Positions 61,454-63,000 of a DNA stretch of 64,000 nt are shown piece by piece. The stretch is taken from assembly GCA_017454485.1 (NCBI GenBank), contig JAFTCX010000081.1, positions 40,321-104,320 on the forward strand. The letters run 5' to 3'. The position numbers were made by a program, and so were the translations under genes. The stretch is from Clostridia bacterium. Its GTDB lineage: Bacteria; Bacillota; Clostridia; Oscillospirales; Acutalibacteraceae. The notes beneath the pieces were generated by a model, which ran no database searches, was not told where the DNA came from, and saw only the letters and a program-made list of their open reading frames with translations. The stretch's first letter is position 1, and every line of letters begins with the position of its first letter.

Positions 61454-61930
61454 ATGGAACGATTGAAAAAGCTGTTTCTCGGCTTCTTTTATGCCTTTCG
61501 GGGCGTCGGCACATCCATCCGGACGGAACGCAATTTGCGCATCCATCTGGTCTGCCTTGCGTATATGCTCGGCTTTCTGCTCGGCACCGACTGGTTCGTG
61601 CTCACGCGCGCGGACTGGGCGCTGCTGATGCTTGCGGCGGGGGCGGTGCTTGCGGCGGAGCTGTTCAACACGGCGCTGGAGCACACGGTCGACCTTGCGA
61701 CGCAAGCATACGCCGAGCACGCAAAAAAGGCAAAGGACGCCGCTGCGGGCGCCGTGCTGGTGTGTGCGGTCTTCGCGGTGATCGTCGGGCTTTGCATTTT
61801 GCTGCAGCCCGAAGCGTTTCGGCAGATGTTTTCCTATTTCAAAGCCCACCCAGTTTCGCTGGCGCTGTTTGCGCTGAGCGCTGTTCCGGCAAATTTGTTC
61901 ATCTTCCTTCCTTGGCAGAAGCAGACGTGA
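61454..61930 (+). CDS. Diacylglycerol/undecaprenol kinase
   Basis: 158 residues. The DgkA-type core has FRGVGTSIRTERNLRIHL (about residues 15-32), three membrane spans and the catalytic ELFNTALEHTVD (about 75-86). A fourth hydrophobic segment near the C-terminus (about 134-152) is extra. In Bacillota the enzyme mainly phosphorylates undecaprenol. ATG 61454 lies five bases after ybeY. Confidence 0.92.
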   Translation: MERLKKLFLGFFYAFRGVGTSIRTERNLRIHLVCLAYMLGFLLGTDWFVLTRADWALLMLAAGAVLAAELFNTALEHTVDLATQAYAEHAKKAKDAAAGAVLVCAVFAVIVGLCILLQPEAFRQMFSYFKAHPVSLALFALSAVPANLFIFLPWQKQT

Positions 61931-61932
61931 CG

Positions 61933-61969
61933 GGGAACAGGTGGCAGGGAACAGGTGACAGGGAACAGT
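61933..61969. repeat. Heptad tandem repeat, GGGAACA/GGTGRCA x5
   Basis: Five 7-bp units alternating GGGAACA and GGTGGCA/GGTGACA directly after the kinase gene; related in sequence to the array at 31709. Confidence 0.8.
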
Positions 61970-62084: not shown

Positions 62085-62113
62085 TTGATTATTCAGGGAA
62101 AATGTGGTAGAGT
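62085..62113 (+). promoter_or_regulatory. Sense promoter of candidate toxin locus 1
   Basis: TTGATT (62085-62090) and TAGAGT (62108-62113), spacing 17. Nearly identical promoters recur at 62430 and 62772. Confidence 0.8.
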
Positions 62114-62165
62114 AAAAACCGCAGAGAGGTCTGCAAGAAACGGTAGGCGGTTCGCTCTCCCAACA

Positions 62166-62181
62166 CAGAAGGAAACTTCTG
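62166..62181 (+). promoter_or_regulatory. Leader hairpin before the peptide ribosome site, copy 1
   Basis: CAGAAG-GAAA-CTTCTG, a 6-bp stem with a GNRA loop, ending four bases before GGGAGG. In copy 2 (62512-62527) the second pair changes from A-U to G-C on both sides, a compensatory change. Confidence 0.75.
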
Positions 62182-62197
62182 CCCGGGAGGTGGTAGC

Positions 62198-62269
62198 ATG
62201 GAGTACATGGCTTATGTTGCTTTGATTCTCATTGCAGCCACTGGTTACATTGTAGCTATCAAAAAGTAA
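62198..62269 (+). CDS. Candidate type I toxin peptide, copy 1
   Basis: 23 residues: a short start (MEYMAYVA) and LILIAATGYIVAIKK. One hydrophobic helix ending in two Lys, as in membrane-acting type I toxins. GGGAGG (62185-62190) is seven bases before the ATG. The peptide is followed by a terminator and faced by a strong opposing promoter. Copy 2 at 62544 encodes a 22-residue form identical from LILIAATGYIVAIKK onward. No known family name is assigned. Confidence 0.75.
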   Translation: MEYMAYVALILIAATGYIVAIKK

Positions 62270-62365
62270 TCTAAACGAAAACAACCGCCCTAACTGCACT
62301 TTGGGTGGTTGTTTTCATAAAGCAACTTAACTCGGAGAGCGACCGCTGAACCGCGACCTCTCTGT
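62270..62365 (-). ncRNA. Candidate antisense RNA (antitoxin), locus 1
   Basis: Start is set by the minus-strand promoter at 62372-62400 and the end by the bidirectional hairpin, giving about 95 nucleotides complementary to the 3' end of the toxin transcript. Its 5' part (CAGAGAGGTC...GCTCTCC) is an inverted copy of the sense leader at 62122-62160. Confidence 0.65.
62278..62315. terminator. Terminator shared by sense and antisense RNAs, locus 1
   Basis: AAAACAACCGCCC pairs with GGGTGGTTGTTTT, with U-rich ends on both strands. Confidence 0.8.
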
Positions 62366-62371
62366 ATCTTT

Positions 62372-62400
62372 ATTATAGCCGTGCGCAGTGCTTTTGTCAA
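62372..62400 (-). promoter_or_regulatory. Antisense promoter, locus 1
   Basis: On the minus strand TTGACA (62395-62400) and TATAAT (62372-62377), spacing 17: full consensus, stronger than the sense promoter. Confidence 0.85.
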
Positions 62401-62429
62401 GCATTGCGGCGGTTTATTTTTTTATAGGG

Positions 62430-62458
62430 TTGATTTTTCGGGGAAGATGTGGTAGAGT
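62430..62458 (+). promoter_or_regulatory. Sense promoter of candidate toxin locus 2
   Basis: TTGATT (62430-62435) and TAGAGT (62453-62458), spacing 17; 345 bp after the locus 1 promoter. Confidence 0.8.
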
Positions 62459-62543
62459 AAAAACCGCAGAGAGGTCTGCAAGAAACGGTAGGCGGTTCGC
62501 TCTTCCAAACACGGAAGGAAACTTCCGCCCGGGAGGTGGTAGC

Positions 62544-62612
62544 ATGGAACTGGCATTTGTTGTGCTGATTCTGATCGCAGCCACGGGTTACATCGTAGCT
62601 ATTAAGAAGTAA
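62544..62612 (+). CDS. Candidate type I toxin peptide, copy 2
   Basis: 22 residues: MELAFVV then LILIAATGYIVAIKK. Base changes against copy 1 inside the shared part are mostly at third codon positions (for example ATT/ATC, ACT/ACG, AAA/AAG), indicating that the peptide sequence is under selection. GGGAGG precedes the ATG with the same spacing as in copy 1. Confidence 0.75.
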   Translation: MELAFVVLILIAATGYIVAIKK

Positions 62613-62706
62613 TTCAGAAAAGCGATAACCGCCCCAGACTCGACAAAGGGACGGTTATCATTAACCAATTCTTTAGAGAGCGACCGCTGAACCGCGACCT
62701 CTCTGT
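62613..62706 (-). ncRNA. Candidate antisense RNA (antitoxin), locus 2
   Basis: Inferred from the minus-strand promoter at 62713-62741 and the hairpin GATAACCG...CGGTTATC (62624-62659). The hairpin differs in sequence from that of locus 1 but keeps its pairing and place. Confidence 0.62.
62624..62659. terminator. Terminator shared by sense and antisense RNAs, locus 2
   Basis: GATAACCG pairs with CGGTTATC around an inner CCC/GGG stem. The stem sequence differs from the locus 1 hairpin while pairing is kept. Confidence 0.75.
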
Positions 62707-62712
62707 ATCTTT

Positions 62713-62741
62713 ATTATAGCCGTGCGCAGCGCTTTTGTCAA
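62713..62741 (-). promoter_or_regulatory. Antisense promoter, locus 2
   Basis: On the minus strand TTGACA (62736-62741) and TATAAT (62713-62718), spacing 17, a repeat of the locus 1 antisense promoter. Confidence 0.85.
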
Positions 62742-62771
62742 GCATTGCGGCGGTTTATTTTTTTTATAGGG

Positions 62772-62800
62772 TTGATTTTTCGGGGAAGATGTGGTAGAGT
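62772..62800 (+). promoter_or_regulatory. Third copy of the sense promoter
   Basis: TTGATT (62772-62777) and TAGAGT (62795-62800), spacing 17. The sequence beyond it is unrelated to the peptide loci. Confidence 0.75.
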
Positions 62801-62806
62801 AAGGGT

Positions 62807-63000
62807 GCCAAACAAAAACCAAGCAAGCGACATATGTTGCAGGCTTCGCATACATTAAATGAAACCGAAAGGTGCACTTTATAAAAAGGTGCATCCTGCC
62901 CTTCCTTTCGAGTTTCTTTTATCGAAGCCGTTGGTTGGTTTTTGTTTGGCGACAAGTAGGACTGCACTTTTTATGCGTCCTATTTGGACGCATTTTTTTG
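62807..63000 (+). ncRNA. Candidate structured RNA or hairpin element downstream of promoter copy 3
   Basis: A perfect 16-bp inverted repeat (GCCAAACAAAAACCAA, 62807-62822; complement at 62935-62950) encloses nested pairing (GCTTCG/CGAAGC, GAAACCGAAAGG/CCTTTCGAGTTTC, TGCACTTT/AAAGGTGCA). A strong terminator ATGCGTCC-TATTT-GGACGCAT plus T-run follows at 62973-62999. It could be a roughly 190-nt noncoding RNA or a MITE that replaced a third toxin locus. No credible ORF. Confidence 0.55.
62973..62999 (+). terminator. Rho-independent terminator
   Basis: Perfect 8-bp stem ATGCGTCC/GGACGCAT, five-base loop, six or more T. Confidence 0.88.

Follow-up and report, generated by a model that had tools for sequence, protein, structure and literature searches.

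Positions 62085 to 62741 of a 64,000-nucleotide stretch of DNA from a Clostridia bacterium (GenBank assembly GCA_017454485.1, contig JAFTCX010000081.1, positions 40,321 to 104,320 of the forward strand; hereafter, the window) hold two tandem units, each with a promoter, a structured leader, a frame for a hydrophobic peptide of 22-23 residues, a hairpin and a minus-strand promoter. A first-pass annotation of this DNA had described both units, their coordinates and this anatomy correctly, and had proposed that they are type I toxin-antitoxin loci. The 345-bp period that it reported agrees with the spacing of the units (345/341 bp), and the repeat families D1, D2 and D4 gave start-to-start spacings of 341, 345 and 346. 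The 3-kb region contains 12 promoter-like sites, as compared to 4.1 ± 2.0 in shuffled sequences.

In copy 1, the sense promoter (TTGATT-17-TAGAGT, 62085..62113, plus strand) is near-identical to that of copy 2 and to a third site. The leader (62120..62197, start inferred) contains a 5' fold-back arm, CAGAGAGGTC (62122-62131), a motif common to the family, ACGGTAGGCGGTT (62140-62152), and an inner hairpin (62166-62181), which lies inside a stem that pairs the Shine-Dalgarno (SD) sequence GGGAGG (62185-62190). The open reading frame (ORF) of the 23-residue peptide, MEYMAYVALILIAATGYIVAIKK (62198..62269, plus strand), is followed by a hairpin, T1 (62277..62316), which is terminator-like in both directions and in which the sense and antisense RNAs would overlap. 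Behind T1, the 3' fold-back arm (62335..62364, plus strand) is complementary to the leader and coincides with the predicted 5' end of the antisense RNA. This RNA of about 90 nt would cover 62276..62365 on the minus strand (ends inferred), and its promoter (62372..62400, minus strand) is overlaid by a distal terminator-like hairpin, T2 (62384..62408, plus strand), which is followed by a run of T.

Copy 2 repeats this order. Its sense promoter (62430..62458) and leader (62465..62543, start inferred; arm at 62467-62476, hairpin at 62512-62527, SD at 62531-62536) precede the ORF of a 22-residue peptide, MELAFVVLILIAATGYIVAIKK (62544..62612), all on the plus strand, and are followed by T1 (62624..62659), the 3' fold-back arm or antisense 5' end (62676..62705, plus strand), the predicted antisense RNA (62624..62706, minus strand, ends inferred) and its promoter (62713..62741, minus strand). 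A hairpin at the place equivalent to T2 (62725..62749, plus strand) was seen in the fold and not in the terminator scan. Both minus-strand promoters match TTGACA-17-TATAAT at 12/12 positions, so that their description as consensus promoters holds. The differences between the copies in the shared peptide part had been called largely synonymous, and in these 15 residues 7/7 codon differences are synonymous by eye. The leader hairpin, predicted as a stem in both copies, carries a compensatory pair, CAGAAG/CTTCTG in copy 1 and CGGAAG/CTTCCG in copy 2.

The leader segments CAGAGAGGTC and GCGGTTCGCTCTC (copy 1) or GCGGTTCGCTCTT (copy 2) are found again 3' of the hairpin (62335-62364 and 62676-62705), inverted and with few or no changes. 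The antisense 5' end repeats the mRNA 5' end on its own strand, and the plus-strand leader is therefore complementary to the segment behind T1. These inverted copies were absent from the first-pass annotation, as were T2, the third sense promoter, the link to Hol_Tox and the wider family. A search of Rfam with this stretch of the window gave five matches with E-values of 0.12 or worse, all under the curators' scores.

The units are members of a large, mainly clostridial and apparently undescribed family in gut Clostridia; no description of the window peptide or of the layout was found in the searches made of the open-access literature, including by queries with peptide fragments. When searched as DNA, the units matched 7 of 59 genomes: a second genome, G019, contains one 98%-identical copy, and the other matches are partial and have the same layout with other peptides. 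When the leader motif, SD and ATG were combined into a pattern, 7 of 34 genomes of the genus were matched, and none when it was reversed as a control; two of its 17 places (L028 and L031) look like chance coding matches. At the level of the order, 66 of 394 genomes were matched, a count that includes chance coding matches, as compared to 16 with the reversed control. With a narrower pattern, 5 of 148 genomes drawn from the class were found, namely the source genome and four from other orders, and the loci from other orders (L227-L230) show by eye the motif together with a hydrophobic ORF and a hairpin. A further pattern found 88 stretches in named genomes. Among the 80 titles listed, most are of Clostridia, Oscillospiraceae, Ruminococcus and Eubacterium, and the carriers include Eubacterium coprostanoligenes ATCC 51222 and Agathobaculum butyriciproducens DSM 100391. 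The titles contain a single outsider, Dyella flava (L143), which lacks the peptide. In viral contigs 53 stretches matched, and 21 loci of these pass the layout test. Neither the DNA nor the peptide of copy 1 had a match in plasmids and phages, the longer-type peptide of L082 had none in plasmids, and Rfam recognised only two tRNAs in 15 family loci. One genome of the same order (G343) contains 12 pattern matches, apparently through local expansion of the cassette.

For the family statistics, an ORF of 15-80 codons stood in the expected position in 147 of 167 stretches, a count that takes in chance ORFs, and 141 of these, 36 from viral contigs, 67 from named genomes and 38 from other genomes, had enough flanking DNA to be scored. 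A T1 motif was present near the stop codon in 129 of the 141. An opposing promoter of at least 10/12 was found in 119 of these 129 loci, as compared to 5.7% in shuffles, and it is perfect in 86; its -10 box lies 75-100 nt past the stop in 109 of the 119. The T tract after T1 has a mean of 5.4 T of 8 in the sense direction and 6.3 in the antisense direction. Filters for promoter, distance and identity left 93 loci, copy 2 of the window being dropped as a near-duplicate of copy 1. In 40 of the 93 (2.6 expected), a T2-like hairpin, which could end a long sense RNA, lies no more than 90 nt outward from the antisense start, at or just behind the antisense promoter. Among non-redundant loci, 48 of 52 were carried forward (L062, L073, L107 and L170 were left out), and in 48 antisense sequences RNAalifold recovered the T1 stem alone, with 6 pairs, 3 of which show two-sided changes. 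From a later locus set, which excluded viral-contig loci and other peptide types, 33 of 34 were aligned (L088 was left out). Convergent promoters and a shared two-way hairpin terminator are thus present as sequence features. In eight of the 141 loci the frame runs past the usual stop with its hydrophobic part intact, and seven of the eight keep the opposing promoter (in L050 it scores 8/12). The first-pass annotation had named a broken frame in otherwise conserved DNA as evidence against its proposal; the cut frame of L044, a decayed copy, coincides with loss of the opposing promoter and T1.

The complementarity between leader and 3' arm was examined in 90 of the 93 loci, which contain both motifs. 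The match between the 5' segments of the sense and antisense RNAs is specific to the locus, with a score of 9.97 for own pairs vs. 5.09 crosswise (0/2000 permutations), and the duplex of the leader with its own 3' arm is predicted at -47.7 kcal/mol vs. -34.3 kcal/mol crosswise (0/2000 permutations). The own arm ranks first, alone or in a tie, in 27 of 90 loci, with a median rank of 2. Since arm length varies between loci and the alignment therefore gaps the arms, pairwise mismatches were counted in place of column-wise covariation. Over 702 aligned nt from 62 non-redundant loci, 57 mismatches were found: a G.U pair is retained in the sense RNA by 41, in the reverse reading by 6 and in neither by 10. 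Unrelated locus pairs lean likewise toward sense-RNA G.U (316/506 transitions), and the own pairs exceed this baseline (p=2e-4). The long RNAs of the window are predicted to fold closed (z -7.9 and -6.0), and in 75 of the 90 loci, with the long RNA taken up to the antisense start and T2 excluded, more than 30% of the first 25 nt are predicted to pair with the last 45. Covariation in silico supports a long-range 5'-3' pairing of the toxin mRNA, which depends on read-through past T1. The SD is predicted to be largely hidden, with a mean unpaired probability of 0.05-0.08 over the 90 loci.

The peptides are under purifying selection, as the pooled dN/dS (nonsynonymous over synonymous rate) is 0.17 over 34 independent pairs, a value raised by the inclusion of one non-family pair (L202/L207). 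Among 104 distinct peptides from loci passing all layout tests, 103 contain a hydrophobic 15-mer and in 102 K, R or H is found among the two C-terminal residues, so that, by hydropathy, the window and the family both encode small hydrophobic membrane peptides with a charged end. Window-like peptides (ME.., 20-27 residues) make up 51 of the 104, and 35 of these contain TGY. Both window peptides lack a match in Pfam and NCBIfam, and a PHROGs search with copy 1 and eight relatives gave nothing for copy 1. Longer peptides in the same RNA frame pass the Pfam profile Hol_Tox (PF16935): in a scan of 10 peptides, 3 were above the cut-off of 23.3 bits, namely L187, from a viral contig (39.1 bits), L049 (32.0) and L097 (24.6), and their three loci contain T1 and the opposing promoter. 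Longer peptides also resemble NCBIfam ComI and PepG1, below the threshold. Like the window peptides, the short MEY..ATGYI.. peptides that were scanned do not match Hol_Tox, and its gathering score was reached neither by the window peptides nor in any of the 34 genus genomes; weak matches in G009 are family loci, and one each in G030 and G008 look so by eye. Five loci (L051, L053, L056, L066 and L067) combine this RNA layout with a peptide whose charges are in the opposite order (a basic N-terminal part and an end of the type ..LLHI..AK), apparently another interchangeable peptide type.

With the L187 peptide, 192 plasmid records were found, mostly from lactobacilli. Five plasmid loci were fetched, two from Lactiplantibacillus and one each from Lentilactobacillus, Pediococcus and Enterococcus mundtii; four of these loci are closely related among themselves, and four carry the annotation putative holin-like toxin. 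All five have an inverted repeat between leader and downstream segment at the matching place (scores 10-14, given without a shuffle control). The opposing promoter scores 9-10/12 and lies 114-129 nt past the annotated or expected stop, and a sense promoter of at least 9/12 is present in two of the five.

The anatomy of these loci, their conservation, the selection on the coding frame and the locus-specific complementarity of leader and 3' arm are established by these data. The type I design that had been proposed is supported, as a candidate, by the convergent antisense promoter, the 3' overlap, the sequestered SD and a small lysine-ended membrane peptide throughout the family. We consider it likely that each unit is a type I toxin-antitoxin locus with a sequestered SD, a 3' antisense RNA and a fold-back long form; its transcripts, the long isoform, the inertness and processing of this form, the toxicity of the peptide and its silencing are what we infer. 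The plus-strand mRNA would encode a one-helix membrane peptide of 22-23 residues, presumably a toxin, the ribosome site of which would be held in the leader stem. The opposing RNA, about 90 nt long and starting about 95 nt behind the stop codon, would pair with the 3' part of the mRNA (with T1, and with the 3' arm where the mRNA contains it) and so keep the toxin off. The complementarity of leader and arm suggests, on computational grounds, a fold-back mRNA like that of hok or aapA whose fold-back arm doubles as the antitoxin 5' end: an mRNA reading past T1 to T2 would close 5'-to-3' into a stored form, by analogy with these systems, and loss of the 3' arm would free the leader. Because the 3' arm also starts the antisense RNA, the antitoxin 5' end is a copy of the toxin mRNA 5' end.

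More tentatively, and with slightly less than even confidence, we propose that clostridial (and probably also Bacilli) Hol_Tox-type loci may share one RNA chassis with interchangeable tiny membrane peptides, including the hitherto unrecognised MEY..ATGYI..IKK family. Since fold-back arm and antitoxin 5' end are the same DNA, the antitoxin would be a built-in copy of the toxin-mRNA 5' end, able to compete for the arm; since the arms diverge between loci, paralogues would be kept apart.

Several results weigh against the reading of the units as fold-back type I loci. The long RNAs of 15 of the 90 loci are not predicted to close. The mean probability of the SD being unpaired is 0.049 in the short and 0.079 in the long form over the family, and in copy 1 of the window it is 0.02 and 0.39, respectively, which counts against an inert long form and slightly lowered our confidence in this reading. 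As the SD is no better hidden in the long form, the closed form, if silent, would not be silenced by simple SD masking of the aapA type; its stability, the way ribosomes load on the leader, or protection from the antisense RNA might be involved instead. The T tract of T1 is fair in the sense direction, so that many mRNAs may stop before the 3' arm, and T2, found in just 40 of the 93 loci, could sometimes belong to a neighbour. A good opposing promoter is lacking in 10 of the 129 T1-bearing loci, some of which are chance stretches. Pairing between leader and antisense 5' end differs little between own and crosswise pairs (-23.8 vs. -23.3, 60/2000 permutations), nor is that between SD region and antisense RNA specific to the locus (397/2000), and direct 5'-5' pairing of leader and antisense RNA was therefore rejected as the main reason for the shared 5' end. 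Finally, hhalign gave a weak probability of 33-34% between the profiles of the short and the Hol_Tox-like peptides; it is the shared layout, not peptide homology, that links them.

Some of these points would suit a type I locus in which the inverted repeat acts as DNA, as an operator pair for a regulator or through inverted-repeat gene conversion, and not in a fold-back mRNA. In its favour, T1 may end most sense RNAs before the 3' arm, the SD is no better hidden in the long form, and the repeat adjoins both predicted transcription starts. Its variation between loci makes a single common regulator unlikely, and the mismatches favour G.U in the sense RNA by 41 to 6 (316 to 190 in unrelated pairs), so that we regard this explanation as rather doubtful. 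Less probable still is that the peptide serves as a small, non-toxic membrane regulator, or is secreted as an antibacterial peptide, and is merely tuned by the antisense RNA. The toxicity of the window peptide is presumed, and a clostridial holin-like toxin is reportedly 41.2% identical to Tmp1, termed an antibacterial protein in the account concerned (PMC9045289); set against this, a multi-copy, antisense-locked design, occurring also on viral contigs and with Hol_Tox frame-mates, is that of a type I toxin. Inverted repeats at both ends and several copies per genome would also be expected of a miniature transposable element, which is very improbable and largely refuted by arms that are locus-specific rather than constant in the family, by the strong coding selection and by promoters at fixed distances. 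As for a chance ORF with promoters in a duplicated spacer, for which the shortness of the peptides would speak, the opposing-promoter statistics, arm mismatches, dN/dS and duplex energies of the family leave it hardly any credence.

Taken as fold-back type I loci, the units resemble several known systems in part. In TxpA/RatA and BsrG/SR4 of B. subtilis and in SprG1/SprF1, a convergent antisense RNA is complementary to the mRNA 3' end and the product is a small membrane peptide, as stated in the relevant passages of PMC8167048. The window loci share the membrane peptide and, as predicted here, the 3' antisense overlap, but differ in having no sequence family match and a short predicted overlap (T1 and the 3' arm). 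The Fst/par locus of pAD1 is described, in the part of PMC7472228 devoted to it, with convergent promoters, a hairpin common to both RNAs and an SD blocked within the RNA, all of which are predicted here too. In par, however, direct DNA repeats make the toxin RNA complementary to the antitoxin RNA, according to the same passages (PMC7472228), whereas in the window loci the repeats are inverted, the toxin RNA is complementary to itself and Fst is not matched. The 5'-3' closure of the toxin mRNA ascribed to hok/Sok and aapA/IsoA in the corresponding section of PMC6733600 is predicted also for the window loci; unlike hok and aapA, these have no peptide family match, their 3' arm is the 5' end of an antisense RNA behind the gene, and masking of the SD by closure is absent from the predictions. 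Few relatives of the known type I toxins had turned up in gut Clostridia in an earlier in silico search, as summarised in the account of PMC6563280. To these bacteria the present loci add a large family of membrane peptides that are very short and have no profile in Pfam or NCBIfam. Their regulatory layout, with the fold-back arm as antitoxin start, can be tested directly by compensatory mutation, and the annotation 'holin-like toxin' becomes linked to antisense control.

The single unit of G019 resembles, by eye, copy 1 on its promoter side and copy 2 in its body, so that the tandem would have arisen, or collapsed, by recombination between units. Remnants were seen by eye in L012 (1500-1640) and L016 (1500-1650), with the antisense half and T1 kept, the toxin 5' part lost and the promoters degenerate.

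An ORF with a SHOCT domain lies 3' of both window units, and the frames 5' of them are ones that we take to be phoH-, ybeY- and dgkA-like. The third occurrence of the sense promoter (62772-62800) stands 5' of a different structured RNA. The latter (62772-62998, fold z -9.1), unannotated and 5' of the SHOCT-domain ORF, comprises a long rod hairpin and then, by eye, seemingly mutually exclusive anti-terminator and terminator hairpins. It had no match in Rfam and is possibly a new riboswitch-like or attenuator family. Similar sequences were found at 9 places in the source genome, 7 in G019 and 6 in G020, some of them being the promoter or one end alone, and several lie upstream of ORFs whose products seem by eye to be secreted or membrane-bound. 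On the other side of the units, three head-to-tail 14-nt repeats of the type GTGACAGGGAACAG (61927-61968) stand directly behind the dgkA-like frame.
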